This document shows positions 2,789 through 35,991 of a stretch of DNA of 51,731 nt, piece after piece. The stretch is from Deltaproteobacteria bacterium HGW-Deltaproteobacteria-22. GTDB taxonomy: Bacteria > Myxococcota_A > Polyangia > HGW-17. The position numbers were made by a program, and so were the translations under genes. The notes under the pieces were generated by a model. The model did no database searches, was not told where the DNA came from, and worked only from the letters and a program-made list of their open reading frames with translations. The stretch covers positions 1 to 51,731 of the forward strand of contig PHAZ01000002.1 of the NCBI GenBank assembly GCA_002841825.1, written 5' to 3'. Numbering within the stretch: position 1 is the first letter of the stretch; the number at the start of each line of letters is the position of its first letter.

Positions 2789-2847
2789 TCCGATCGGCGG
2801 ACCCGCTGTTTGGCGCAGGCGCGGAAAGGAGGTGACCGATGGACAGC

Positions 2848-2969
2848 AAAAAAAAAGGCCAGACTTAGTGACCTAAGCCTGGCCCGAAGTCGATCCGGTA
2901 AAGGAACGACCCGCAATCTCATCTTAGCCGGATCGATCGGGTTTACAAGAGAAGAATCGAATCAGGGGG
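2848..2969 (-). ncRNA. Candidate minus-strand small RNA with intrinsic terminator
   Basis: Read on the minus strand, a promoter-like pair TTGATT (3003-2998) and TAATGA (2980-2975), 17 nt apart, would start an RNA near 2969. The RNA would have a C/U-rich 5' end and a hairpin from CGATCCGG/CCGGATCG (2935-2928 with 2898-2891). It would end in a terminator made of a 12-bp stem with one mismatch (2884-2873 with 2868-2857, loop GTCA) followed at once by nine T. No minus-strand protein gene enters this region, so a terminator in this orientation has no other obvious client. The -35 element overlaps the ribosome site of the SBBP lipoprotein gene at 3013. Pattern-based; no family recognised. Confidence 0.45.
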
Positions 2970-3012: not shown

Positions 3013-4431
3013 ATGAAGACCCTTTTTTGTTGCATGAGTTTGTTTTTATTCCTGTTCACGTCCTGTGTTGACGATCAATCCATGCCCAACGACGTCGACC
3101 CGAACCTGGCCATGGCCCCCGCCCCTGGCATCGTCGAACCTTCACCGGAGTTTCGCCCGGACCAACTGCAGGCGGATCTCCCGGAGAATCTGGCGATGAT
3201 CGGCACTTTCGGTGAGAACATCGGCACGTCATCCTATGATGAAATGACTGATGCAGTGCGCGATTCCGACGGAAACATTTTTGTGACTGGATACACGTAT
3301 GGATCTTTGCCAGGCTATACCAATGCAGGGAACACGGACGCATTTGTTGCCAAATACAACTCGAGCATGGAACTCATTTGGGTCAGGCAGATCGGTACTA
3401 GTTCGAGTGATATTGGACGTGCAATAGCTTTGGATGATACGGAATCTTATCTATATATTGCGGGACACACGAATGGTTCACTGTACGGAACCAATGCTGG
3501 TGGGTCAGATATATTTTATTTGAAAATGACAATAAATAATTCAATTAGCGTAACAAGGCAATTTGGAACCAGCAGCAGTGAATACGTGACGGATGCATCT
3601 TATGGACTCTCTTCATCAACGCCTTCTGCATACATCTATACTTTTTTAATTACAGGCTATACCTATGGGGCATTTAGTGGGTACTCAAATGCCGGGTCAT
3701 ACGACGGATTTTGGGCAAAGTGTCAAGAAAATGTTGGGAAGACTTTCCCGCCGATGATCACTTACTCAACAACGGTTTATCAATTTGGTTCTACTGGAGC
3801 CGATTACCCGATGGCACTCTATTTTGATGGTTCTTCATACGTTTTCACTGGCGGCTATACTGGTGGGGCCCTGGAAGGTTCGAATGAGGGTGGATATGAC
3901 TCCTTCATGAGGAAAGCCGCCTACTCCAATGGAGCACAAAGTGCCATTAATCAATGGGGTACGGTCAGAAACGATTATCTAAAAACGATGACTGTAAATT
4001 CCGACGGAACTGCACTTTTCTTCTCCGGAAATGAAACTGGAAATGGCATTATAATGGGACAGTGTGCCATGTCCAATCTTTATACGACATGGGTTAATCA
4101 CGTTCCTTCAGCGACTTATTATAATGTTAGAGATATTACCACCAATGGTTTGTATTACTATATTACCGGAGAATACTTCGGAGGAACTTTCTTTTCACTG
4201 CCATATACCTCGGATAGAGATGTATTTGTCTTGGCGACGACAGGAGGAAGTCGGGTGGATGAGTGGTGCATTAGGTATTGGGATGGAGATAATGCAGCTG
4301 ACGACGCTGGAGTAAAAATATTTATTGACGGGACAGATTTCATTTCCGTTGTAAATTCCTATGGTGATGTGGGAGCAGATGAGAACAAAGGCAGTCTTGA
4401 TGGTTTTGTCCGGGAGTGGACGTTGTATTGA
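3013..4431 (+). CDS. SBBP-repeat (beta-propeller) lipoprotein
   Basis: A 472-aa exported protein. The signal peptide ends in a lipobox (LFLFTSC, Cys18), so it should be lipid-anchored to a membrane. From about residue 65 to the end it repeats a module of the type 'GTS..D......D..GN.FVTGYTYGSL.GYTNAG..DAFVAKY', seen at least six times with increasing decay. This is the SBBP beta-propeller repeat. Such proteins are surface or periplasmic and may bind partners, but the exact role is unknown. ATG 3013 follows AAGGAG at good spacing. The gene is much AT-richer (many AAT, ATA, TTT codons) than most of the window, which suggests recent acquisition. It lies beside IS66/IS21 remnants. Confidence 0.8.
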   Translation: MKTLFCCMSLFLFLFTSCVDDQSMPNDVDPNLAMAPAPGIVEPSPEFRPDQLQADLPENLAMIGTFGENIGTSSYDEMTDAVRDSDGNIFVTGYTYGSLPGYTNAGNTDAFVAKYNSSMELIWVRQIGTSSSDIGRAIALDDTESYLYIAGHTNGSLYGTNAGGSDIFYLKMTINNSISVTRQFGTSSSEYVTDASYGLSSSTPSAYIYTFLITGYTYGAFSGYSNAGSYDGFWAKCQENVGKTFPPMITYSTTVYQFGSTGADYPMALYFDGSSYVFTGGYTGGALEGSNEGGYDSFMRKAAYSNGAQSAINQWGTVRNDYLKTMTVNSDGTALFFSGNETGNGIIMGQCAMSNLYTTWVNHVPSATYYNVRDITTNGLYYYITGEYFGGTFFSLPYTSDRDVFVLATTGGSRVDEWCIRYWDGDNAADDAGVKIFIDGTDFISVVNSYGDVGADENKGSLDGFVREWTLY

Positions 4432-19634: not shown

Positions 19635-22250
19635 TCAGTGACGTCGTCTCGATAACAGCAGGAAAGCGGCAAGCAGCAGCAGCGGGAAGAGGACCGAACG
19701 TGTCCGGGGGGACCCGGTGACACAGCCGCAGCCGTTGCCCGTCGCCCTGGGCCCGGTGTCGTCGAGCACGCAGGCTCCGTCCTCGACGTGGGTGCCCTGC
19801 GGACAGCAGCCGGTGGCGGGAAGGCAGCCGCGCTCGCCGCACTCGAGGGGATCGACGGCGATGCAGATGCCCTGCTCCGGATCGCAGGACTCCAGGCCGT
19901 TGCAGCGGTCACCGTCGTCGCAATAATCGTTGTCCGGATCACACGAGACCGCGGTCTCACAGGCTCCGTCCTGCAGGGTCGTGCCCGTCGGGCAGCAGCC
20001 TGACTCCGGCAGGCAGCCGCGGCCGCCGCAGTCGGGGGGCGTCCCGGGCAGGCAGCCTCCGCCGTCGCAGGACTCCAGGCCGTTGCAGGCGTCGTCGTCG
20101 TCGCAGATCGCGACGGCGTCCTCGTCGACGGCGCCGTCGCAGTCGTCGTCCAGGCCGTCACAGGTCGCGTCGTCTTCGGCCACGGCCTCGCAGGTGGAGA
20201 TCGGGACGTTGCCGCCGAACCGGATGGTGGAAAAATACGGATAGGCGGCCCAGCCCGAGGCGTCGGTGAGGGCGGGGCCGGTGATCTCGGGGCCGAAGGC
20301 GTCACCGCTGGACAGGTGACAGCGCACGCCGTCGGCGCTGCGGCCGCAGAGATCGGCCAGCCCGTCGTGATTGAGATCCCCGAAGTGGATCGAGGTGTAC
20401 AGCCGGAAATCGTCCCAGCCGGAGGCCTCGTCCCAGGCGGGGCCGTCGACCTGGTTCCCCCAGGCGGCGCCGTCGAAGCGCCAGCAGCGGATCCCGGCGT
20501 TGGCCCGCGCGCACAGATCGAGATCCCCGTCGCCGTCGATGTCGGCGAACCGGATCGTCGAGGTGTTGTCCATGTCCTTCCATCCGGTGGCGTCTGAGAG
20601 CTGGGGGCCCGGGATCGCGGGTCCGAAGGCGTTGCCCCCGGCATAGCGGTAGCACTCGACGCCCGCGGAGGTCCGCGCGCACAACTCGGCCGCGCCGTCG
20701 GCGTCGATGTCCACCATGCGGATGGTGGTCCAGTACGCGACATCGTTGAACCCGGCCGCGTCGCTCCAGGCGGGTCCGGCGAACGTCGGCGAGAAGGCGG
20801 TGCCCGTGGACAGCGCGCACCACATGCCTGCGGCGCCGCGACCGCACATGTCGTGCAGGCCGTCGCCGTCGAGATCGCCGGTGCGGATGGTGCCGAAATA
20901 GTACGGCTGGTGCCAGCCGTTGGCGCCGATCCAGGCAGGTCCCGCGATGGAGGCGCCGATGCCCGAGCCCGTGGAGGGATAGCAGATCCAGCCCGCGGCG
21001 GCCAGCGCGCAGAAGTCGTCGAGGCCGTCGCCGTTGATGTCGGAGAGCCGGAAGGTGGAGGCGTGCTGCAGGGCGGCCCAGCCGCTGCCGTCGGTCCAGT
21101 TCGGTCCGGGGATGGCAGCCCCGAACGACGTGCCCGTGGAGGGCCAGCATCGGACACCCTCCGGGGAGCGGGCGCAGACGTCCATGAGGCCGTCTCCGTT
21201 GATGTCCCCGGTGCGGATGGTGGAGTAGGTCGGCTCCGTGTCGAAGCCGGCCGCGTCGGAGAGCTCGGCGATGATCCAGGGCTCGGTGGAGAAGCCGGTT
21301 CCCGTCGACAGGTAGCAGCGGAGGCCGGCCGCGCCGCGGGCGCAGAAGTCGGACTGGCCGTCGCCGTTGAGGTCAGTGCTCCGATCCTGGTTGAGCACGC
21401 CGGAGTCGACGATCAGTTCATCAATCCACAAATCGCAGGACCCCGGGGCGCCGGTGCCGTCGGCGAAGACCGCCCAGTGGTTGGATACGACGCGCTCGGA
21501 CCCGTCGGAGGGATCGTTGACCGTGCCGAGGCCAGCGACCGTCATCGCCGTGGAGCCGCCGCCGTCGAGGTTCATCGCCGTCCAGGCACCGAGGTTGACC
21601 ATGAGATCGGCCAGTTCGTCACAGGTCATGCCGCGGCTGGCCGTGGAACGACCATCGACGACCACCAGATACAGGTACTGCCGGTCCTTGGACAGGCCGA
21701 CGACCGTGCGTGGGTGACGCTCCGGACAGTGCGACGGGCTGGTGGCGCCGTACTGGGCCACACCGTCGCGCACCAGCGTGGGAAAGCCCCCCACGGCGTT
21801 GCGCATCCAACTGTCGAGGGTGGAGACCACGGCCTCGGTCGGGGAGAGGAAGAGGTGATCCGCGCCGGACACGAGAAACCCCATCGAGGAACTGTCGTCG
21901 TGCCACTTCGTGCCGTCGCCCACGGCCATTCCGATGGGAATGTAGCCGGTGTAGTTGAAAAAGTCGCCGTTGATCACCGCCTGGGCGCCGATGAGGTTTC
22001 GAAACGACGTCGGTGTACGCTGGCGCTCGTCCTCCCTGGTGGCCCGGTGGCTCACGCCGCGGGCGCAGGCGTCCACCTGCAGGGACCAGATCTGCAGCGG
22101 GTCCGAGGTCGTGCGATGCAGCAGGCGCAGCCCGGGGTGCGGTGTCGACCAGGTGTCGGCGGCAGAAGCCGGCGAGACGACGACCAGCGCGAGCGTAACG
22201 GCGATCAAGTTGAGGAAAAATCGCGTAAGCGGAACATGAAAATGCAACAT
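19635..22250 (-). CDS. Phosphodiester glycosidase domain protein with FG-GAP repeats and MYXO-CTERM
   Basis: An 871-aa exported protein with a classical signal peptide (cleavage near SPASAAD). An NAGPA-type phosphodiester glycosidase domain covers residues about 60-270: NGDFFNYTG, GFLVSG, PRTVVGLSKD, VVVDGRS and MNLDGGGSTAM are its hallmarks. Seven to eight FG-GAP/VCBS-like repeats follow (IRTGDINGDGLMDVCARSPEG) and should form a propeller with Ca-binding DxDGDGxxD loops. Then come Cys-rich MopE-like segments (CDGLDDDCDGAVDEDA). The tail GCGCVTG, hydrophobic helix, SRRRH is a MYXO-CTERM sorting signal. Likely a surface enzyme acting on sugar-phosphodiester polymers. Start moved to ATG 22250 (GGGAGG upstream). 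Confidence 0.85.
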   Translation of the reverse strand: MLHFHVPLTRFFLNLIAVTLALVVVSPASAADTWSTPHPGLRLLHRTTSDPLQIWSLQVDACARGVSHRATREDERQRTPTSFRNLIGAQAVINGDFFNYTGYIPIGMAVGDGTKWHDDSSSMGFLVSGADHLFLSPTEAVVSTLDSWMRNAVGGFPTLVRDGVAQYGATSPSHCPERHPRTVVGLSKDRQYLYLVVVDGRSTASRGMTCDELADLMVNLGAWTAMNLDGGGSTAMTVAGLGTVNDPSDGSERVVSNHWAVFADGTGAPGSCDLWIDELIVDSGVLNQDRSTDLNGDGQSDFCARGAAGLRCYLSTGTGFSTEPWIIAELSDAAGFDTEPTYSTIRTGDINGDGLMDVCARSPEGVRCWPSTGTSFGAAIPGPNWTDGSGWAALQHASTFRLSDINGDGLDDFCALAAAGWICYPSTGSGIGASIAGPAWIGANGWHQPYYFGTIRTGDLDGDGLHDMCGRGAAGMWCALSTGTAFSPTFAGPAWSDAAGFNDVAYWTTIRMVDIDADGAAELCARTSAGVECYRYAGGNAFGPAIPGPQLSDATGWKDMDNTSTIRFADIDGDGDLDLCARANAGIRCWRFDGAAWGNQVDGPAWDEASGWDDFRLYTSIHFGDLNHDGLADLCGRSADGVRCHLSSGDAFGPEITGPALTDASGWAAYPYFSTIRFGGNVPISTCEAVAEDDATCDGLDDDCDGAVDEDAVAICDDDDACNGLESCDGGGCLPGTPPDCGGRGCLPESGCCPTGTTLQDGACETAVSCDPDNDYCDDGDRCNGLESCDPEQGICIAVDPLECGERGCLPATGCCPQGTHVEDGACVLDDTGPRATGNGCGCVTGSPRTRSVLFPLLLLAAFLLLSRRRH

Positions 22251-22268
22251 GAACGTCCTCCCGGGAGA

Positions 22269-22304
22269 AGTCTGACACAGTCCGACCAGTCTGACCAGTC
22301 CGAC
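22269..22304. repeat. GTCYGAC short tandem repeats in a divergent promoter region
   Basis: AGTCTGACAC, AGTCCGACC, AGTCTGACC and AGTCCGAC follow each other with 9-10 bp periods (one helical turn). They lie between the glycosidase and ankyrin genes, so they could be an operator shared by both, or simple slippage. Confidence 0.45.
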
Positions 22305-22318
22305 TTCTTTTGGGACGC

Positions 22319-22347
22319 TTGACATTCAGGTGGTCCCGGGCCACTCT
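22319..22347 (+). promoter_or_regulatory. Possible promoter for the ankyrin gene
   Basis: A perfect TTGACA (22319-22324), a 17-nt spacer and a weak CACTCT -10 lie 35 bp before ATG 22382. Confidence 0.35.
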
Positions 22348-22381
22348 TGGTCCGGTCGCAATCATCACCGGGAGAGGAAAC

Positions 22382-25300
22382 ATGAAAACCATCGTCCTTT
22401 GCATCATCATGGCGCTGTTGGCGTCCTCCGCCTGCGGAAAGAAGGAAAAGAAGAAGGGCCCGGACAAGACCCCGGCGCCCGTCGCCGCGAAGGTCACCGT
22501 CGCGTCGCTGGCGCAGTTGATCACCGCCGGTCAGACCGCCGAGTTTGTGAAGCAACTGGAGCAGTTGACCGCCATACTGGTCAACGACCCCGTCGACGCA
22601 TCGGGCCTGACGCTCGCGATGCTGGCCGCGAAGAAGGGCGACCTCGAGGCCCTCAAGGCCCTCGTCGGGAAGGCGGCCCGGCTGGGTCTGGCGGACAAGT
22701 CCGGCGCGACGCTGCTGCACCACGGGGCCGCCCATCTGGCGGTGGTTGCGTTCCTGCTGGAGAAGAAGGTCGACCCGGACAAGGTCGATCTGGAGGGCCG
22801 CACGCCCGTGCACGCGGCCATCGCCTTGGGCCGTTGCGACGTGATGAATGCGCTGCTGGCCGCCGGCGCGAACAAGAACGCCCGCGACAAAAAGGGGTTC
22901 AGCCTCCTGCACCTGGCCGCCGTGCAGAATGACGCCGCCTGTCTGGAGGGCCTGCTCGAACGCAAGGCCAACGTCAACGCCGCCGACCAGGCAGGACTGA
23001 CGCCGGTGCTCTCGGCTGCCAGGGCGGGCAACCTCGCGGCCCTGGAACGCCTGGCGAAGGCAGGCTCCTCCTTGTTGAAGAAGACGAAGCGCGGTGATTC
23101 GGCGCTGCACCTGGCCGTCGAGGCGAAGACGCTCGACGTGCTGAAGTTCCTCGTCGAGAAGAAGAAGCAGTACCCCGACGCGAAGAACACGCAGGGACAG
23201 ACCCCGCTTCATGCAGCCGCCCTCGCCGGCGCCGGAGAGGCCGTGAATTACCTGCTGTCGAAGAAGGCCTATCCCGGCGCCAAGGACAAGGACGGCCGGA
23301 TCCCGCTGCACGCGGCGGCCGGGCGGGGCCAGCTGGCCGTCGTGAAGCTGCTGCTGGAGAAGAAGTCCTGGCTCGACAACACCGACTACAAGAAGCGCAC
23401 ACCGCTGTTTCTGGCCATCATGAACGGACGGATCGAGGTGGCCACGTTCCTCGTCGCCCAGGGCGCCTCCCTCACGCTGGCCGACTCGGAGGGCTTCTCG
23501 GCGCTGCATCATGCCATCATCGCCGGAAACGAGGCGCTGACCACCGCGATCATCGAGAAGTCGGGCAAGATCGACGTGCCCACGAAGAGCGGCTGGACGG
23601 CGCTTCACCTGGCGGCCTCGCGGGGCCAGGAGAAGATGGTGAAGCTGCTCGTGGACAAGGGCGCCAACATCAAGGCGAAGGACCGCAAGGGCAACCATCC
23701 CTACCATCTGGCGCTGGACGACACGCCGCCGATGTTCCCCACCGAGCTCGACGAACTCAAAGCCGGGCTGACGGTCCTGCCGGCGACCGAGGACGGATCA
23801 CACCTGAAGGCGGCCATCGCGTGGCTCGAGGAACAGAAGAAGGAGGACGAGGCCCTGCGAAGCGGCCGGATCCTCTGCGCGAAGCTGCTCCTCGAGAAGG
23901 ACAGCGACCTCACCGCGCGGGATCACTCGGGCCGCGATGCCCTGCAGTTGGCGGCGGCCTCGGGGATGAAGGAACTCTTCGACCTGCTCAAGGGCAAGGG
24001 GCTCAAGGGGGACAAGCCGGACTACCGCTCGCGCACGCTACTGTATCACGCGGCCATGGGTGGCAACCTCGAGATCGTGAAGACGGCCATGGACATGGGC
24101 TTTTCCGAGGTGGCCTTCAAGTACAATCGCGAGACGCCGCTGCACGTGGCGGCCCAGTTCAACCGCGTCGAGGTCATCCGTTTTCTCATCGGCCGTGGCG
24201 CCTTGGTGAAACAGAAGGCGACCAACGGGGACACCGTCCTGATGTACGCGGCCAGGAGCCTCGCGGTGCAGGCGGCGGCGGCCCTGTTCGAGGCCGGCGC
24301 CGAGGCTGTGGCACCCGCCCCCGGTGAGGCCACGGCCGACGGACCGCGCGTGCGCGACGCCGAGGAGGATTTCCGTCCGCCCTCGGGGGACGATGGGGAG
24401 TATGCTCCCGAGGACGAACCCCCGCCGGCGGAGGAACCGGAGGTGGCCGCCCCGGCGGAGGATGGCAAGAAGCCTTTCGACGGCACGAATTACTTCGAAA
24501 ACCACCTCAAGATGCTGTCGAAGATGGATGGCACCCCGCTCGCCGTCGTGTTCCTGGCGGCATTGGAGAATCAGCCCGGCCCCAAAGGCCGCTCCCCGCG
24601 CGCGACCGTGCTGCTGCGCCGCCAGTTGGCATTTCTGGAGCTGCTGTTCGGCAAGGGAACGCCCACCGAGGTGTTGGTGGAGGGCACGGCGCTGATGGTC
24701 AACGCGGTGCTTAGCGGACACCTGGAGGTGTGCCAACTGCTCTTGAAGCACAAGGACGCATGGAAGGTGGTCCGGCCGATGGACATGCCCCGGCTGGCCA
24801 TCGAGCAGATGCACTACGCGCTGGCGAAGTACCTGATGGATCAAGGTTTCCTGCCGGAAAAGGGCCCAGGAAACATGGTTCCGCTCAGGGCCATTCTCAA
24901 GGCGGATCCACTTTCAGAACGTGCGGCTGCGCTGGATGTCTTCACCCGGCTTCTGCCCCTGGTGCAGGACCTCGACGAGGCCGATGATGACGGAGATACC
25001 CTGCTGCACACTGCGGTGCAGAGCAGTGGCGCCGACTTCCTGCAGGCGCTGCTGAGCGCGAAGCCGTCGGTCTCCAAGACCAACAAGAACGGCGAGACGC
25101 CAGCGCATGTGGCTGTCCGTCAGGGACGGTTGAAGATGGTCGAACTGTTCCTGGGGCCGGGCACGACGAAGGTCCCCGAGGGCGAGCTGGCGCTGGTCCC
25201 GCTGGCCGCCGGAAGCGGCAGCGTTGAGGTGCTGCAGTGGCTGCTGAAGAACGGGTACAAGGATGTGGAGACCGCCAACGGCAAGGTCAGCGGCCTCTTC

Positions 25301-25636
25301 GCCGCGGCAAAGGCCGGGAACTACAACGCCTTCCAGTTGCTGGCCGCGGGCCGCGCCGACGCGCTCAAGGCGGTGGACGCCGAGGGGGCCACCATCGTCC
25401 ACTACGCGGCCACCGGCGGCAGCGAGAAGATCCTGAACGCCCTGCTCAAGGCGGGCATCCCGCTGGCCGTCGCGGACACGGCCAAGAACACCCCGCTGCA
25501 CCTGGCGGTGAAGGCCGGCAAGGAGGGCGCCGTCGCCTGGCTGCTCAAGAACGGCGCTGACGCCGCCGCCTTGGACGGCGCGGGAAAGAAGCCCGCCGAC
25601 TACGCCGACGAGGCGATCAAGGCGCTGCTTCCCTAG
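22382..25636 (+). CDS. Giant ankyrin-repeat lipoprotein
   Basis: A 1084-aa exported protein. Signal peptide with lipobox LLASSAC (ACGKKEKKK follows). Nearly all the rest is ankyrin repeats of about 33 aa, recognisable from TPLHAAALAGAGEAVNYLLS, IPLHAAAGRGQLAVVKLLLE, TALHLAASRGQEKMVKLLVD and TPLHLAVKAGKEGAVAWLLK; I count roughly 20-25. An acidic, Pro-rich linker (about residues 645-700) splits the array in two. Ankyrin arrays are protein-binding scaffolds; envelope-anchored ones are unusual. The start was moved from 22310 to ATG 22382, which opens the signal peptide after GAGAGGAAAC. Confidence 0.85.
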   Translation: MKTIVLCIIMALLASSACGKKEKKKGPDKTPAPVAAKVTVASLAQLITAGQTAEFVKQLEQLTAILVNDPVDASGLTLAMLAAKKGDLEALKALVGKAARLGLADKSGATLLHHGAAHLAVVAFLLEKKVDPDKVDLEGRTPVHAAIALGRCDVMNALLAAGANKNARDKKGFSLLHLAAVQNDAACLEGLLERKANVNAADQAGLTPVLSAARAGNLAALERLAKAGSSLLKKTKRGDSALHLAVEAKTLDVLKFLVEKKKQYPDAKNTQGQTPLHAAALAGAGEAVNYLLSKKAYPGAKDKDGRIPLHAAAGRGQLAVVKLLLEKKSWLDNTDYKKRTPLFLAIMNGRIEVATFLVAQGASLTLADSEGFSALHHAIIAGNEALTTAIIEKSGKIDVPTKSGWTALHLAASRGQEKMVKLLVDKGANIKAKDRKGNHPYHLALDDTPPMFPTELDELKAGLTVLPATEDGSHLKAAIAWLEEQKKEDEALRSGRILCAKLLLEKDSDLTARDHSGRDALQLAAASGMKELFDLLKGKGLKGDKPDYRSRTLLYHAAMGGNLEIVKTAMDMGFSEVAFKYNRETPLHVAAQFNRVEVIRFLIGRGALVKQKATNGDTVLMYAARSLAVQAAAALFEAGAEAVAPAPGEATADGPRVRDAEEDFRPPSGDDGEYAPEDEPPPAEEPEVAAPAEDGKKPFDGTNYFENHLKMLSKMDGTPLAVVFLAALENQPGPKGRSPRATVLLRRQLAFLELLFGKGTPTEVLVEGTALMVNAVLSGHLEVCQLLLKHKDAWKVVRPMDMPRLAIEQMHYALAKYLMDQGFLPEKGPGNMVPLRAILKADPLSERAAALDVFTRLLPLVQDLDEADDDGDTLLHTAVQSSGADFLQALLSAKPSVSKTNKNGETPAHVAVRQGRLKMVELFLGPGTTKVPEGELALVPLAAGSGSVEVLQWLLKNGYKDVETANGKVSGLFAAAKAGNYNAFQLLAAGRADALKAVDAEGATIVHYAATGGSEKILNALLKAGIPLAVADTAKNTPLHLAVKAGKEGAVAWLLKNGADAAALDGAGKKPADYADEAIKALLP

Positions 25637-28163: not shown

Positions 28164-29591
28164 ATGACTGAAAACGTACGAAAAATCCTGAGTGACTCGA
28201 AGGCGGCCCGCTGGACCGCGCTGCTGATCGTCTCGTTCACCATGTTCGCCGGCTATTATCTGGCCGACGTCATGGCGCCGCTGCAGGGCCTGGTCCAGAA
28301 CCAGCTCTCGTGGTCGGCCACCGAGTACGGCTTCTTCACCAGCGCCTACGGCTGGTTCAACGTGTTCCTGTTCCTGCTGATCATCGGCGGCATCATCCTC
28401 GACAAGTTCGGCATCCGCGTCACCGGTATTGGAGCGGCCCTCATCATGGTGGCCGGCACGTCCCTGAAGTACTACGCCATCTCCACGAGCAGCCTCGACG
28501 GCATCGACGTGACCCTGCCGATCCTGGGGACCTGGAAGGCACAGGTCATGCTGGCCGCCCTGGGCTATGCCATCTTCGGCGTCGGCGTCGAGATCACGGG
28601 CATCACGGCCTCCAAGGCCATCGTCAAGTGGTTCAAGGGCAGGGAGATGGCCCTGGCCATGGGCATGCAACTGTCCGTGGCCCGCCTGGGCACGGCGCTG
28701 GCGCTGTCCACGTCGCTGCCCATCGCCCGCATGTCGGGCCACGTCTCCACGCCGCTTTTGTTCTGCCTGATCATGCTGTGCATCGGCGTCCTGGCGTTCT
28801 CCGTCTACGCCATGATGGACCGCAAGCTCGACGCCTCCATCGTGGCGGCCCGCGCCCAGAGCGACGATCAGACCCCCGAAGACGAGAAGTTCAAGCTCAG
28901 CGACATCTTCAACATCCTGGGCAACCGCGGCTGGTGGTATATCGCCCTGCTGTGCGTCCTGTTCTACTCGGCGGTCTTCCCGTTCCTGAAGTACGCCACC
29001 GACCTGATGATCCAGAAGTTCGGCGTCAACGCCAACTGGGCGGGATCCCTTCCGGGCCTGCTGCCCTTCGGCACCATCTTCTTCACCCCGCTGTTCGGCG
29101 GCATCTATGACAAGATCGGCAAGGGCGCCACCATCATGATCATCGGTGCCACGATCATCACCGCGGTCCACCTGCTGTTCGCGGTGCCGCTGCTGAACCA
29201 CTGGTCCATCGCCATCGTGCTGATGATGCTGCTGGGCATCGGCTTCTCCCTGGTGCCGTCGGCGATGTGGCCGTCGGTGCCCAAGATCATCCCGGACCGC
29301 CAGCTCGGCACGGCGTTCTCGCTGATCTTCTGGGTCCAGAACTGGGGTCTGATGGGCGTGCCCGCGCTCATCGGCTGGGTCCTCGACAAGTACTGCATCA
29401 CCGGCACGAAGATCGTCGACGGCCAGCCGGTGCACACCTACAATTATACGATTCCGATGCTCATATTCATGAGCTTCGGCCTGCTGGCGATCGGGCTGGG
29501 CTTCCTGCTCAAGCTCGAGGACAAGAAGAAGGGCTACGGCCTGCAGTTGCCCAACATCAAGAAGGCTCCGACCGAAAATGCGCAAGCGTAA
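28164..29591 (+). CDS. MFS transporter
   Basis: A 475-aa inner-membrane protein with twelve predicted helices in two six-helix halves joined by a charged loop (DRKLDASIVAARAQSDDQTPEDEKF). The MFS loop signature is visible as GGIILDKFGIRVTG after helix 2 and again as GGIYDKIGKGATIMIIG in the second half. The layout resembles MFSD1-like bacterial carriers, but the substrate cannot be read from sequence. The 3' end overlaps the C39-like peptidase gene by 14 nt, so the two are translationally linked. Confidence 0.88.
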   Translation: MTENVRKILSDSKAARWTALLIVSFTMFAGYYLADVMAPLQGLVQNQLSWSATEYGFFTSAYGWFNVFLFLLIIGGIILDKFGIRVTGIGAALIMVAGTSLKYYAISTSSLDGIDVTLPILGTWKAQVMLAALGYAIFGVGVEITGITASKAIVKWFKGREMALAMGMQLSVARLGTALALSTSLPIARMSGHVSTPLLFCLIMLCIGVLAFSVYAMMDRKLDASIVAARAQSDDQTPEDEKFKLSDIFNILGNRGWWYIALLCVLFYSAVFPFLKYATDLMIQKFGVNANWAGSLPGLLPFGTIFFTPLFGGIYDKIGKGATIMIIGATIITAVHLLFAVPLLNHWSIAIVLMMLLGIGFSLVPSAMWPSVPKIIPDRQLGTAFSLIFWVQNWGLMGVPALIGWVLDKYCITGTKIVDGQPVHTYNYTIPMLIFMSFGLLAIGLGFLLKLEDKKKGYGLQLPNIKKAPTENAQA

Positions 29592-30348
29592 TCTTCTCCT
29601 GTTCCTGCTCCTGGCGGCCTTCGCCTGGGTGAGCGCCTGCGACGACGGCGGCGATCCGGCCAACAACGGAAACACGGACTGCACCACGCCCGAGGTGTAC
29701 TTCCCGGAGTACGGCTGCCTTTCCGATGGCTTCGCCGACAACGACCGGGAGTACGACTGGTACCTGACCCAGATGGGCACCGGACCCGCGGAGGGCTCCA
29801 ACTGCGGCCCCACCTCGGTGGCCATGGCGCTGCGCTGGTTCGACCAGGGACAGACCGTCAGCGTCGGGACGATCCGGGACACGATCACGCCGGGTGAGAC
29901 CGGCTGGTGGTACACGAACAACATCGAGGCCGCCCTGACCAACTGGGGCACGCCGTATGCCATGCGGGCCGCCTCGGAGCAGGCGGTCCTCGACGCGCTG
30001 GATCGCGGCAGCGTCCTGCTGATCTGCATCACCATGGGCGAAATCACGCAGGCGACGGATCCCCGCGAGACCCACTTCGACCGCTTCTACGGCTACGACT
30101 CGGGACACTTCCTGATCGTCAAGGGGCATATTGACAATGCGCGATGGTTGATCGTCCATGATCCGAACAACTGGCAGTTTGACTACTACGACGACGCCCT
30201 GACGCAGCCGCTGGGCGAGAGCCGCTATTACCGCACCTCCGAGGTGCTGACCTCCATGGGTGTCTGGTGGCCGTATTTCTTCGAGATCGGTGTATCCGAC
30301 GCCACCAAATCCCTGCGCAACGTGCCTGTGGGCCGCTCGGGTCCCTGA
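29578..30348 (+). CDS. C39-like peptidase lipoprotein
   Basis: A 256-aa exported protein with signal peptide and lipobox-like FAWVSAC, then Asp/Asn-rich linker. The papain-like peptidase_C39_2 core shows Cys in SNCGPTSVAMAL, His in GHFLIVKGHI and a following DPNNW (Asp). This triad fits a cysteine peptidase acting outside the cytoplasm. Its gene begins inside the end of the MFS gene, so the pair might couple peptide hydrolysis to uptake of the products; that link is inference. Confidence 0.82.
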   Translation: MRKRNLLLFLLLAAFAWVSACDDGGDPANNGNTDCTTPEVYFPEYGCLSDGFADNDREYDWYLTQMGTGPAEGSNCGPTSVAMALRWFDQGQTVSVGTIRDTITPGETGWWYTNNIEAALTNWGTPYAMRAASEQAVLDALDRGSVLLICITMGEITQATDPRETHFDRFYGYDSGHFLIVKGHIDNARWLIVHDPNNWQFDYYDDALTQPLGESRYYRTSEVLTSMGVWWPYFFEIGVSDATKSLRNVPVGRSGP

Positions 30349-30369: not shown

Positions 30370-32529
30370 CTACGATCGCGAGGGGCGGCCGAAGGCATGA
30401 AGGGCCGCGGGCAGGATCACCAGGTTCGCCAGCAGGGAGAAGAACGAGGCGAGCACCATCAGGGTGCCCAGCCCGGAGATGGCCCGGAACTGCGAGAACA
30501 TCAGGCCTGCGAAGCCGCCGGAGATGATCACCGACGACAGCAGCACGGAGACGCCGGCGGTGGACAGGGCCGTGCCGACCTGATCGGCGGCGGGCAGGCC
30601 CTCGCGGCGGGCCTGCATGATGCGGCCGAACAGGTGGATCGAGTTGTCCACGATCAGGCCCAGCGCGACCGAGAACACCAGCACCACCGAGGGCGTCAGG
30701 CGCCAGCCGAGACGTCCGGCCACGAACAGGCAGGCCAGCAGGGGCAGCAGGCTCGGGATCAGCAGCAGCAGGGACACGAGCGGTCGCCTGGAAACCAGCA
30801 GCAGCACAAGTAGAATCAGACCCAGCGCCAGGACCAGCGAGCGCCAGAAGCCCGAAGTGAACGCCGCGAACGAGCGGTTGGCCACCACCAGGGTGCCGGT
30901 GAGGGCCACCTCGAACGGGGGCGGATTTTTGGAGATCCACGTCTCCAGCACGCCAAGCAGCGCATCGGTGTGCCGGGTGCCCAGGTCGCCGGTGAACAGC
31001 AGCATCTGACCGGCCTTCGCGTCGACGTTGTGGAATCCGTCAAGGGCCTTCTTTCCCGTCTGCGTCTGCAGCAGCGGTTCCCAGTCCTCGACGGGCACCG
31101 GGATAGAAGCCTGCATCCGGGCGAGGATGTCCTCGGGACCGAGGACCTTCCGGATCCCGTCCCGGGTCACGGCGAACTTCGAAAAGGCGCGCATCCAGGC
31201 CCGCCCGGCGGGGGTATACAGCGACGCCCCTCCCGCCTTCATGACCAGGTTGATCTGGAACAGGCCGAAGCCCTTCTGATCGATGCCGCGCATCGATCGG
31301 GCGACGGGGTGATCCGTGTCGAGGTCGTCGACCATGTAGACGGTGGAGTCCATCGGGCGGTACATGACCGCGCCCAGAACCACGGCCGCCAGGGTGAGCG
31401 CGAGAATCCACCGGTGACGCCGGCGGGTGAACGTATGCAGACCGGTCATGGCTGCGATGGCGCAGGTGGCCGCGCGGGAGGTCCGGCCCGGAGGAGAGAA
31501 TGACAGCAGCACCGGGAAGAGGGTCATCGAGAAGCACCAGGTGATCAGGATGCCCGCGGCCGTGACCCACGCGAACTCCACGACGATCGGGATGCGCGTG
31601 ATCATCAGGCTGGCGAACCCCAGCGCCGTGGTCAGCGACGTCAGCAGGCACGGGAACCAAAGGCGCGAGAAGGTCGCAGCGATGGCAGGCCCGGGCTCGC
31701 CGTCAGTGCGGGTCAGGGGGGACAGCAGGTGGATCGAGTCGGACACCCCGACGATGACGAGGATCACCGGAAGGACGCTCAGCAGCGAGGATATTCGGAC
31801 GTCCAGCAGGGCCATGAGGCCCAGCGTGACGATCCAGGCAGGAAGCACCGACAGGAAAAACAGGATCGTCCCCGGAAGGGTCCCGGAGAGAAAGAAAAGC
31901 AGCAGGAACATCAGGCCCAGCGCCACCGGCAGGAACCGGAACTGGTCGCGCTCCATGGCTTCGAGGTAGCGCGCGGTGATCACGGGCGTGCCCGAGGCCT
32001 CGACGCGGCGTCCGTCGATCCGGTGTCTGGCGGCGACGCCGTCGAGCTTCCGTCCGAAGCCGCGTAAAAATGCGTGGTGATTGTCGGCAGGTGCGATCGA
32101 GCCCGCGATGACGAAGGTGTCGCGTGCGTGGTTCCACAGCAGCATCTCGAAGAGCGGATTCTCCGTCAGCAGGCGGGGAAGCTCGCCGGGTCGCCCGCAG
32201 TCGGCGCCGGGCACGACGGTGCCGTACCACAGGATGCGGGTCAGGCCGATGGACTCCAGGTCGCGCGCGATGGCCTCGAGGGCCAGGCACCCCGGTCCGT
32301 CAAGGCCGATGCCCTGGACGAACAGGCTCACCTGCTCGTCCTGCCGGGAAAAGGCGCCCTTGAAGAAGCGGTAGTCGCGTTGCGTGGCACCGGAGACGAC
32401 GTAGAAGCTCTCCAGCGAAAAGTCCGCCCGAAGCCGGGGCAGAAACGGGACAAAGAGCGCCATGACCAGGAGCGCGGCCAGCAGGACGGTTTTTCTGCGC
32501 GCCAGCAGCAGCGGGAACGGCGTGTTCAT
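30370..32529 (-). CDS. RND-superfamily (MMPL-type) exporter
   Basis: A 719-aa inner-membrane protein with the internally duplicated 1+5/1+5 helix pattern of the MMPL/RND family. Each half has one helix, a periplasmic loop of about 160 aa, then five helices. Conserved membrane segments LILVIVGVSDSIHLLSPLTRT and LGLIVDNSIHLFGRIMQARR carry the Asp residues used for proton coupling in this family. It is shorter than MmpL proteins and of the 'predicted exporter' type. Substrates of relatives are lipids, pigments or peptides. The start overlaps the radical SAM stop (ATGA, 32526-32529), so it is likely the export partner of that enzyme's product. Confidence 0.87.
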   Translation of the reverse strand: MNTPFPLLLARRKTVLLAALLVMALFVPFLPRLRADFSLESFYVVSGATQRDYRFFKGAFSRQDEQVSLFVQGIGLDGPGCLALEAIARDLESIGLTRILWYGTVVPGADCGRPGELPRLLTENPLFEMLLWNHARDTFVIAGSIAPADNHHAFLRGFGRKLDGVAARHRIDGRRVEASGTPVITARYLEAMERDQFRFLPVALGLMFLLLFFLSGTLPGTILFFLSVLPAWIVTLGLMALLDVRISSLLSVLPVILVIVGVSDSIHLLSPLTRTDGEPGPAIAATFSRLWFPCLLTSLTTALGFASLMITRIPIVVEFAWVTAAGILITWCFSMTLFPVLLSFSPPGRTSRAATCAIAAMTGLHTFTRRRHRWILALTLAAVVLGAVMYRPMDSTVYMVDDLDTDHPVARSMRGIDQKGFGLFQINLVMKAGGASLYTPAGRAWMRAFSKFAVTRDGIRKVLGPEDILARMQASIPVPVEDWEPLLQTQTGKKALDGFHNVDAKAGQMLLFTGDLGTRHTDALLGVLETWISKNPPPFEVALTGTLVVANRSFAAFTSGFWRSLVLALGLILLVLLLVSRRPLVSLLLLIPSLLPLLACLFVAGRLGWRLTPSVVLVFSVALGLIVDNSIHLFGRIMQARREGLPAADQVGTALSTAGVSVLLSSVIISGGFAGLMFSQFRAISGLGTLMVLASFFSLLANLVILPAALHAFGRPSRS

Positions 32530-33713
32530 CGGCGGCGTCCGGTCCCCAGGGCCTCGGTGAGCATCCGGTGCCCGGCGCAGACCTCGGCGTCGGGATCCTG
32601 CTGCATTTTGTCAATGATATTCGCAATATTCCCGTCACGGATGTTGCCGTAGGCCCGCTGCAGGAACGGACACCGGCGCACGTCCCCGGCGGGATCGACG
32701 TACAGGAAGCTGCGGCCGCCCTGGCATCCGCGGACCGCCTCCCAGAGGTCCGGCGTGTAGGCCAGCGGGCCGGGCACGGACGAGGCGTTGCACCGGTGGC
32801 ACAGGCGATCCAGGGTCCGGTGCTCGGCGATGGAGAAGGGCGCAAGCTCCGGCGGCAGGGACTGATCCTGCACCCGGGGCGCGTAGCAGTTCACGAACGA
32901 GGCCCCGAGTCCGCCCACCGTTTCGATGAAGCCGTAGAAGGCAGCCTCCTCAAGGAGCGGACGGCCAATCACGGCGTTGACGGCCACGAGGAGGCCGGCT
33001 TCACGGGCCTGGCGCATCGTGCACGCCGCGGTGTCCCAGGCGGTGTCGCCGCCCTTGACGCGGTTGACATGGGCGAGGTCGTGGGAGTCCATCGAGACCA
33101 TCACGCCCGAAAGGCCGGCACCGGCGAGGCGCGCGAGGTGTCCGGCCTCCAGCCCTGTCCCGGTGGTGAGCATCCAGAAGTGGCGCTCAGGCCGCACGCA
33201 GCGCCCAAGAAGTGCCACGAGATCGTCGGCGCGCAGGGCGGGTTCGCCCCCGGAGAAGTGGAAGGTGAAAACACCGGCGGTGGCCAGCCCTGCGATGGTC
33301 GCCTCGAGCAAATCGACGGAGGGCTCGGTCGCCTGGCGTCGGGTCGCGTCGACGTAGCAGTACGGACAGTGGTGGGGGCAGCGTCCGGTGATCGAGACGA
33401 TGGCCGTCACGGGGGCAGGGGTTCCGTGACCGGTCGCTGAGGCGACCTCACGCTCCATGCACTCGAGGAAGGCGACGGTGTCCAGCGGTGGAAGGTCGGG
33501 CACGGCCCAGACGTGACCCCGGTGCCGCACCAGCCGCCCGGGCATGGAGGCGGACAGGCGGCTCTCGCGAAGCCAGTAACGCCACAGGCGCACCGTGGCC
33601 GGACCGGCGCCCGCTCCACGCACGAGCCTGCGGGCCAGGCGGATCCAGAGGCCCACGGTGAACGCCGCCCGGCCGGGGCCCGTGAGATAGGAGGTCGAAA
33701 TGGGTGAATGCAA
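32526..33713 (-). CDS. Radical SAM/SPASM enzyme
   Basis: A 395-aa iron-sulfur enzyme. The radical SAM cluster motif CxxxCxxC is C112, C116, C119 in GRCPHHCPYCYVDATRR, followed by FHFSGGEPALR (GGE motif). The C-terminal region has SPASM-type Cys: CHRC, GCQGGRSFLYVDPAGDVRRC, GNIRDGNI and a final Cys, fit for auxiliary 4Fe-4S clusters. SPASM enzymes typically modify peptides (RiPPs, PQQ, mycofactocin) or proteins. The first 90 residues are Arg-rich and of unknown fold. The start is TTG 33713, with GGAG 6 nt upstream. A tiny ORF ends 3 nt before it in the same frame, and the exporter gene overlaps its end by 4 nt. Confidence 0.88.
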   Translation of the reverse strand: MHSPISTSYLTGPGRAAFTVGLWIRLARRLVRGAGAGPATVRLWRYWLRESRLSASMPGRLVRHRGHVWAVPDLPPLDTVAFLECMEREVASATGHGTPAPVTAIVSITGRCPHHCPYCYVDATRRQATEPSVDLLEATIAGLATAGVFTFHFSGGEPALRADDLVALLGRCVRPERHFWMLTTGTGLEAGHLARLAGAGLSGVMVSMDSHDLAHVNRVKGGDTAWDTAACTMRQAREAGLLVAVNAVIGRPLLEEAAFYGFIETVGGLGASFVNCYAPRVQDQSLPPELAPFSIAEHRTLDRLCHRCNASSVPGPLAYTPDLWEAVRGCQGGRSFLYVDPAGDVRRCPFLQRAYGNIRDGNIANIIDKMQQDPDAEVCAGHRMLTEALGTGRRR

Positions 33714-33716
33714 GGG

Positions 33717-33806
33717 TTACTCCGTGGGCATGGCCCGGCCTCCAGGGGGCCGGGCGGGATCCCAGCAGTATACACAATGGCGATCCGGGTGCATGCCTCC
33801 AAACAC
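33717..33806 (-). CDS. 29-codon peptide ORF upstream of the radical SAM gene (candidate precursor peptide)
   Basis: GTG at 33806 has a textbook ribosome site (AAGGAGGA, 7-nt spacing). The product is 29 aa with a CxxC and aromatic cluster (RHCVYCWDPARPPGG) and ends MPTE. A second start, ATG 33794, would give 25 aa. The TAA stop overlaps the GGAG of the radical SAM gene, whose TTG start is only 3 nt further, so translation is probably coupled. Tiny Cys/Trp/Tyr-bearing peptides beside SPASM enzymes and exporters are typical RiPP precursors. Caution: it is in frame with the enzyme gene, so a nonsense-split N-terminus is the main alternative. Too short for the ORF track. Confidence 0.5.
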   Translation of the reverse strand: MFGGMHPDRHCVYCWDPARPPGGRAMPTE

Positions 33807-33877
33807 CGTTTGTCCTCCTTTTCCGGGTGCTCGGCGCTCCGGACGGTTGATGTATGTATGTGAACTATGACAAGGAT

Positions 33878-35011
33878 TTAGTGACGGATGAGGCGGCGGC
33901 GGATCAGCACAAAGGTGAACAGCAACGGCAGCAGCAACGGCAGTCCGCCGGGATTCCGCCGGCCGCCGACGGTGCAGGAGCAGCCATCATCGGCCGTGGT
34001 GTCGCCGGGCTCGCCGGGATCGTCGGTGTTGCAGGTGTCGTCGGGCCAGGTGGTGCCCGGTGTGACGCAGCGCACGGCGCCGTCGAGGCAGGCCGAGACG
34101 CCCTCGCCGCACCGGTTGATGCAGGCGTAGCCCTCGCCCAGGGTCACGGTTGTGCCGTTATCAACCAGGCCGTCGCAGTCGTTGTCCTGTCCGTCGCAGA
34201 CCTCGGTGCCCGGGCTGTTGGGCGAGCACGTCAGCCAGCCGGCCACGCACAGTTGCCTCCCTTGTGCACAGACTCCCAGGGCGCCCTCGCCGACGGTGCA
34301 GTCGGCCGCCTCGCCTTCGGGATCGGACCCGTCGCATGCCGACCAGCCCGTCCACATGCAGCCGGTGCAGGAGCGGGTGCGGGTGCCGCAGTCGCCGCAG
34401 TTTTCGGACTCGGTGCTGCCCTCGTCGCACTCGCAGGTGGTGAGGTTGATCCGCCGGGCACCCGAGTACACCGAGGAGAATGTGCGGCTGTTGCGGACGA
34501 TGCCGTAGGAGCAGCCCTTGGCCTCGACGCAGTCGTGCTCGCCGAAGGCGTCCTCGGAGCCGATGACCAGGATGACGTGGCTGTCGCTGGCCACCGCGTC
34601 AGCCGGACGAAGGTCGTTCATGGGAACGACGTTCCAGTACTCGTTATCGGCCGTGAAGCTCGAGGCCACGTAGCGGGCGGTGTTGCAGGCGTTGGTGGCC
34701 AGGGGATCGGGCACCTGCCAGGCGCGGGACACGAAACCCGAGCAGTCGGCTCCGTAGGTGCCCGTGTGGGTGCACTCCGGGCAGCCTGTGGACCCATCGT
34801 TGGGCGTGCAGACGCCGGGGGCGCAGCCCACCAGATCCGGGGCGCAGCCGTTGGAACACCAACATTCCCCACCCCACCAATAGGAAAATCCGACGGCCGA
34901 CAGGCCGCGGCAGACGATGGCGTCGGGCGGCTCGGAGGGTGGCGCCGCCTGGGAAACACCAGACGGGAGCGCGATCAAGCAGAACATCAGGCACGCGAAG
35001 AGGTTTTTCAT
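33878..35011 (-). CDS. NlpC/P60- or CHAP-like Cys-rich surface protein with MYXO-CTERM
   Basis: A 377-aa exported protein with signal peptide (cleavage near GVSQAAP). Residues about 30-180 look like a papain-fold amidase: Cys in GTYGADCSGFVSRAWQV and His in ASDSHVILVIGSED, as in NlpC/P60 and CHAP wall hydrolases. Then come Cys-rich segments, one thrombospondin-like (CGDCGTRTRSCTGCMWTGW), a MopE-like motif CDGQDNDCDGLVDNG, and a MYXO-CTERM end (GCSC, hydrophobic helix, IRRR). Likely a surface-sorted hydrolase. The start was set to ATG 35011 (GGGAGG upstream), which overlaps the previous gene's stop by 4 nt. Confidence 0.8.
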   Translation of the reverse strand: MKNLFACLMFCLIALPSGVSQAAPPSEPPDAIVCRGLSAVGFSYWWGGECWCSNGCAPDLVGCAPGVCTPNDGSTGCPECTHTGTYGADCSGFVSRAWQVPDPLATNACNTARYVASSFTADNEYWNVVPMNDLRPADAVASDSHVILVIGSEDAFGEHDCVEAKGCSYGIVRNSRTFSSVYSGARRINLTTCECDEGSTESENCGDCGTRTRSCTGCMWTGWSACDGSDPEGEAADCTVGEGALGVCAQGRQLCVAGWLTCSPNSPGTEVCDGQDNDCDGLVDNGTTVTLGEGYACINRCGEGVSACLDGAVRCVTPGTTWPDDTCNTDDPGEPGDTTADDGCSCTVGGRRNPGGLPLLLPLLFTFVLIRRRLIRH

Positions 35012-35991
35012 GGCGTCCTCCCATCCCAGCGCACAACAAAGACGCCCTCCCAGGTGAAGAACATCTGCCATACCCCGCCGTCGGGGCCGAGGCGGACCTC
35101 CTGACGCTGGTCCAGCTCCGTGAGCACCCAGGGGCTGCGGGCCGACCAGAGCTCGGCGAAACGGTTGTCGAGGCGGATCAGGCGGTACCGCTCGTCGAGC
35201 ACTCCAAAGGGGGTCGTGCCCCCGAAGAGCGCCTCATGCACGACCGCCAGCACCCGTCCCTTCGCGTCGGCGTCGAGGGCGACGATGCGCCGGATCGGGA
35301 GCTCCCCCGGGATCGTGATGGTCGCGTCTGGCTTCGCGGCGTTGCGCGGGCCGATGGAGATCCTGGCACCGCCGGCGGGGCGGTCCAGCGTGCCGATCAG
35401 ACTCCTGCCGCCCTCGATGGGGCGTCCGAGGACGATGCGCCGCTCACAGGGCCCCATGGCCGCGTCGAGCACCCGCACGCTGTGGCGGTGGGAGACCTCG
35501 AGCCAGACGCCGTCGGTGCGGGCGAACATGGCCGTGATCAGGCCCGCGTGCTCGATGCCGTGTCCGACCAGGTCGAGCTCGGTGACGATGGAGCCGTCGA
35601 GGTCGTAGACCAGCAGGGTGCGCGTGACCAGGCGGTCCAGGGCCAGCACGAAGCGTCCGGCCGCCTCGCCCACGTCGTCGAAGGCGGGGCCCGGCAGCGC
35701 ATAGGCGGGCAGCTCCCGGCCCGCGGGGTCGAAGTCGAGGATGCGCAGGTTCACCTGGTCCAGGATCAGGAGGCCGCCGTCGGCCTTCGTTGCGAAGCTC
35801 TTGGGTCCCTCGCTGTCGGCCTCGTCACCCAGGAAGCGCCCGACGTCGGCGTCCCAGGCCAAAAACAAGAACGGCTCGGGCAGGTCATCGGCCGCCACCG
35901 CGTGGGAGATCCGGGGGAAACCGGCCAGGCCGAGCAGCAGCAGCAGGGGACACGCGACCAGCAGGGTTTTCCGGGTGTTTCGTGTGTTCAT
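35008..35991 (-). CDS. Secreted propeller-like protein of unknown function
   Basis: A 327-aa protein with signal peptide (cleavage near SHAVAADD). The rest is beta-rich with repeated blade-like phrases (GGLLILDQVNLRILDFDPAG, RTLLVYDLDGSIVTELDL, DGVWLEVSHRHSVRVLD), which suggests a six-bladed NHL/WD-like propeller. No catalytic motif is seen. Its stop overlaps the start of the NlpC/CHAP-like gene, so the two products may form one surface complex. Confidence 0.72.
   Translation of the reverse strand: MNTRNTRKTLLVACPLLLLLGLAGFPRISHAVAADDLPEPFLFLAWDADVGRFLGDEADSEGPKSFATKADGGLLILDQVNLRILDFDPAGRELPAYALPGPAFDDVGEAAGRFVLALDRLVTRTLLVYDLDGSIVTELDLVGHGIEHAGLITAMFARTDGVWLEVSHRHSVRVLDAAMGPCERRIVLGRPIEGGRSLIGTLDRPAGGARISIGPRNAAKPDATITIPGELPIRRIVALDADAKGRVLAVVHEALFGGTTPFGVLDERYRLIRLDNRFAELWSARSPWVLTELDQRQEVRLGPDGGVWQMFFTWEGVFVVRWDGRTP

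Follow-up and report, generated by a model that had tools for sequence, protein, structure and literature searches.

In the 51,731-nt stretch of DNA analysed here (the window), a radical SAM enzyme gene and a gene for an MMPL/RND exporter form a pair that is real and recurrent, and that is uncharacterised. The best way to understand the locus, and one that may well be correct, is as an operon of two genes whose products, a twitch-type radical SAM enzyme and the pump, together handle a small molecule or lipid-like product bound for export, with a 29-aa ORF ahead of them acting as a translational leader. The original prediction had read the same three ORFs as a radical SAM RiPP unit with the 29-aa peptide as precursor; the enzyme-exporter part of this stands, as the gene pair recurs in a second genus, and the precursor part is not supported.

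The three minus-strand ORFs lie in tandem, encoding 29, 395 and 719 aa, with a 3-nt gap followed by a 4-nt overlap; the coordinates of this packing, as originally given, are exact. The upstream ORF (33717-33806, minus strand) begins with GTG, encodes the peptide VFGGMHPDRHCVYCWDPARPPGGRAMPTE and ends in a TAA stop 3 nt before the enzyme start. The enzyme gene (32526-33713, minus strand) begins with TTG behind a weak GGAG Shine-Dalgarno (SD) sequence (-6.1 kcal/mol), in the same frame as the short ORF, whose start lies 93 nt away. The exporter gene (30370-32529, minus strand) begins with an ATG that lies in the enzyme stop (ATGA). No promoter was recognised ahead of the operon, and Rfam yielded no RNA family in the window. 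The gene upstream of the mini-ORF (33878-35071, minus strand) carries a weak MopE metal-binding motif and a MYXO-CTERM tail below threshold (16.7 vs 20 bits), hinting at a Myxococcota-like origin. Elsewhere in the window lie two large genes: one (19635-22325, minus strand) encodes a NAGPA phosphodiester glycosidase that carries FG-GAP repeats, the other (22310-25636, plus strand) a protein whose roughly 1100 aa consist largely of ankyrin repeats.

The enzyme was classified from Pfam, NCBIfam and an alignment of eight sequences. Pfam Radical_SAM matches it at 5.1e-18, and a CxxxCxxC motif is found at residues 112-119; the radical SAM half of the original assignment is sound, and its SPASM half fits less well. 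In a full SPASM motif, which holds two auxiliary clusters, CX9-15GX4C precedes CX2CX5CX3C, and one more cysteine comes last. The C-terminus of the enzyme has CX12GX4C (C330 and C348) and a further cysteine, C379, all three conserved in the eight-sequence alignment; CX2CX5CX3C is absent, leaving the SPASM cysteine set incomplete, and the Pfam SPASM match is sub-threshold (18.4 bits vs a cut-off of 21.5). The SPASM domain has seven or more cysteines (PMC5682303), and the twitch domain is a truncated SPASM domain that binds one auxiliary cluster (PMC9012708). Because CX2CX5CX3C is missing, and a twitch domain is just such a truncated, single-cluster version, the enzyme looks twitch-type, a better fit than full SPASM. 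C330, C348 and C379 are then candidate auxiliary-cluster cysteines, which would fit one cluster; a single-sequence AlphaFold model (pLDDT 37.5) was too poor to place them.

Set beside known SPASM/twitch enzymes (PqqE and MftC; the twitch enzymes MoaA and BtrN), the protein shares the CX3CX2C core and a C-terminal auxiliary-cluster region with CX12GX4C. It differs, apart from the missing cysteine motif, in falling far below the cut-offs of all NCBIfam models (the best, PqqE, gives 78.6 vs 381 bits), and in an N-terminal region of ~95 aa, common to the homologues, that matches no Pfam family. The best PDB match is also a PqqE (6c8v, 1.4e-16).

The exporter, classified from Pfam and NCBIfam, bears out the original call: Pfam MMPL (PF03176) matches in two stretches at 1.1e-23, with 84.2 bits vs a cut-off of 20.5, and there is a Sterol-sensing match at 5.3e-14 as well as Patched-like matches. 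The over-threshold MMPL and sterol-sensing domains are what it has in common with HAE3/MMPL RND exporters. HAE3 is its nearest subfamily, although the TIGR00921 score of 117 bits lies under that model's cut-off (351.9), and it is set apart further by its radical SAM partner. Close MMPL relatives within the same family (L063 in G007 and L067 in G005) keep different company: each lies directly downstream of a carrier-protein/thioester-reductase (NRPS-like) gene, the end of which overlaps the exporter start. Because these relatives adjoin such genes, association suggests that this MMPL group exports small molecules.

Homologues of the enzyme were sought in 318 genomes of the class, in 379 sampled from the phylum and in two further classes. 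Seven are full-length: L002 (G005), L041 (G238), L042 and L046 (both G477), L043 (G486), L044 (G327) and L045 (G350). A repeat of the phylum search, on the same genomes, added none. A search of genome contigs gave only three distant relatives, and a search of viral contigs none. The L002 enzyme, from another genus of the family to which the window genome belongs, is the sister of the window enzyme (support 0.992; 41% pairwise identity), and its exporter is 38% identical to that of the window. Among the seven homologues the enzyme-MMPL pairing is seen in L002 only; there, as in the window, the two genes overlap by 4 nt. A literature search combining radical SAM with MMPL found no papers.

The enzymes of L041-L045, from other genomes of the phylum, are 27-34% identical to the window enzyme and have a different partner: the gene immediately ahead of each, which overlaps or abuts the enzyme start, looks like another radical SAM enzyme, of SPASM type. 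Family scans confirmed this in L041, L042 and L044, and the upstream proteins of L043 and L045 are visibly similar; no MMPL exporter was recognised beside the enzyme. L042 and L044 also have B12-dependent HpnR/BchE-like radical SAM enzymes further upstream, so that these loci, to which L043 and L045 are related, are multi-radical-SAM clusters of B12-dependent HpnR/BchE-like, SPASM-type and window-enzyme-like members; no precursor gene was recognised in them, though they were not searched in detail for one. The L046 enzyme gene stands alone.

The ribosome site of the 29-aa ORF, AAGGAGGA-CAAACG-GTG, with its SD at 33813-33820 on the minus strand (defined by sequence and duplex energy), is as strong as first supposed: the anti-SD duplex of -11.6 kcal/mol is among the strongest in the window, where 14 of 4127 start codons reach that value. 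When the intergenic region (164 nt) was resampled under a Markov model, 3.1% of the sequences gave an SD of similar strength together with a start, and 0.05% gave one that also opened an ORF of 20 aa or more with its end close to the start of the enzyme; these criteria were chosen after the data had been inspected. Of the SDs found in the window, the strongest (-12.9 kcal/mol) belongs to another mini-ORF, nine codons long (MDSKKKGQT; 2839-2890, plus strand), which lies ~145 nt upstream of a gene at 3013 and runs into an inverted repeat, GGCCAGACTTAG...CTAAGCCTGGCC; it too is possibly a leader.

What the short ORF does is best approached through L002. There, a strong-SD start (-11.2 kcal/mol) lies 86 nt upstream of the enzyme, compared with 93 nt in the window. 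The ORF that it opens encodes 42 aa, MKKHWEWWSRWMNLCYAGRSRIREIQGERCPTMLLARSLPPV, is out of frame with the enzyme and runs 43 nt into the enzyme gene; the encoded peptide has no similarity to that of the window (828 of 1000 shuffles score as well). That is, the position of the start is kept between the two loci, and the peptide, the frame and the position of the stop are free, as is expected of a leader. A stretch common to the two leaders, TGCTGGGA-TCCCG, was set aside as too short to be meaningful (BLAST E about 3).

The window itself has the features of such an arrangement, namely a strong upstream ribosome site and a stop codon at the downstream start. In the mechanism we propose, ribosomes would load at the strong SD and translate the 29-aa ORF as a leader of unconstrained sequence, stop at the TAA 3 nt before the weak TTG, and probably re-initiate there on the enzyme; the 4-nt overlap would then couple translation of the pump to that of the enzyme. 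The enzyme would make or modify a small molecule, as the company kept by the exporter's relatives suggests, or a lipid-like compound, and the pump would move the product out of the cell. Against simple coupling of this kind stands L002 itself: there the ORF extends 43 nt past the enzyme start, and a good SD (-8.5 kcal/mol) precedes the enzyme itself, so that coupling in L002 would work differently. The conserved position of the start is a matter of two loci, the window and L002, and on these two a leader accounts best for the kept start, the free sequence and the weak TTG, an explanation to which we give roughly even weight.

The main rival, possible if somewhat doubtful, supposes that the short ORF is a functionless chance frame, the SD-like stretch being accidental or a standby site only, and that the enzyme and exporter genes are an ordinary two-gene operon. 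SD-like sites as strong do occur with start codons inside genes, at about 0.4% of starts, and other homologues of the enzyme do without such an ORF: L046 has no SD-led ORF close to the enzyme start (the nearest candidate begins 298 nt upstream), and in L041-L045 the place of the mini-ORF is taken by the other radical SAM gene. Codon usage leans the same way. A codon model built from 18 ORFs of the window gives the 29-aa ORF a score of -0.18 over the 28 codons that follow its start. Only 4 of the 669 in-frame gene windows score that low; of the 1995 off-frame windows, 1461 (about 73%) score as low or lower, and the first 28 codons of real genes go down to -0.17. The test puts the ORF at the bottom of the coding range, which suits a leader as well, and is suggestive and not decisive. 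Chance must nevertheless accommodate the roughly 3% probability of such an SD and start in the intergenic stretch, and the presence of a strong SD and start at the matching place in both MMPL-linked loci.

A further point against the leader reading, along with the lack of a recognised promoter, is that the RNA of the leader region folds no better than its shuffles (z of 0.26 and -0.11). Within the ORF there is an inverted repeat, GCCCGGCC-CCCTGGA-GGCCGGGC (33733-33755, minus strand; sequence and fold), which encodes the ARPPGGRA stretch of the peptide. This 8-bp repeat was considered as an attenuator and rejected: its fold is no better than that of shuffles, no T run follows it, and no terminator-like site was found there.

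A further possibility, raised originally and in our judgment very improbable, would make the peptide the enzyme's own N-terminus, set apart by the in-frame TAA through mutation, assembly error or readthrough. The shared frame is compatible with this, and the enzyme frame of L002 is open further upstream, where it encodes MDEPMLCWEVPNPGDSRRTMP. This matches HCVYCWDPARPPGGRAMP weakly, with a score equalled or bettered by 23 of 1000 shuffles; the resemblance, MLCWEVPNPGDSRRTMP vs VYCWDPARPPGGRAMP, is the only hint of a fused protein. The reading is unlikely because the homologues begin at about the TTG residue: all seven start within about 10 residues of that position, six of them with strong SDs, L002 has AAGGAGA-ACG-ATG at the very point matching the TTG, and in the five loci with the adjoining radical SAM gene a different gene ends there, hence no N-terminal extension.

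There remains the precursor reading, which we now regard as improbable: the 29-aa peptide, and with it the unrelated 42-aa peptide of L002, would be a fast-evolving RiPP precursor whose cysteine and aromatic residues the enzyme modifies and which the MMPL pump exports. That a short ORF opens behind a strong SD in each of the MMPL-linked loci, and at almost the same position, can be taken in this sense, as can the cysteine next to an aromatic residue in both peptides, and the enzyme's best families include RiPP enzymes (PqqE and mycofactocin MftC). The two peptides are nevertheless without sequence similarity although the enzymes are 41% identical, and the peptide search of 310 class genomes gave no credible match, only scattered weak ones (best E outside the window, 0.006). 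The peptide is thus not conserved upstream of orthologous enzymes, the outcome named beforehand as refuting, nor is the CVYCW run noted originally. The extension of the L002 ORF into the enzyme gene, the lack of a full SPASM motif in the enzyme and the low codon score of the 29-aa ORF weigh on the same side.

The accessory functions expected of a RiPP locus point the same way. In PqqD family searches for an RRE, neither the enzyme nor any of the scanned neighbours gave a match (a divergent RRE-like fold falls outside this test), and the one PqqD match that the genome yields lies on a different contig, C294. By itself, a missing RRE does not exclude a RiPP, because many radical SAM peptide enzymes function without leader or RRE (PMC5682303). 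No linked family was recognised as a dedicated precursor protease. A gene for a Peptidase_C39_2 family protein with a lipoprotein-like N-terminus (29578-30348, plus strand; 8.1e-10) converges on the exporter gene, with about 20 nt between the two ends, and is not clearly part of the operon; it was considered as a leader protease and set aside, as it is on the other strand, and comparison with L002 is limited by the 3.7-kb contig of that locus. Like PqqA-PqqD-PqqE, then, the window has a very short ORF adjoining a PqqE-like radical SAM enzyme; unlike it, the window lacks a conserved peptide, a PqqD near the operon and a linked recognised precursor protease family. A minimal three-gene system, made up of a diverging 29/42-aa precursor with no recognisable leader, a twitch-type enzyme with no RRE and an MMPL/RND pump in place of an ABC transporter, is accordingly a slim prospect. 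Should the peptide turn out to carry modifications after all, the locus would be a RiPP system of unusually small size whose exporter is unusual as well.

For the annotation of such loci the comparison carries a caution: because the start position recurs here without the peptide sequence, a mini-ORF with a strong SD just ahead of a radical SAM gene is insufficient ground for calling a RiPP precursor. If the enzyme and exporter of this operon do work together on a small molecule, the locus would add a subfamily of twitch-type radical SAM enzymes that is uncharacterised and linked to an exporter.
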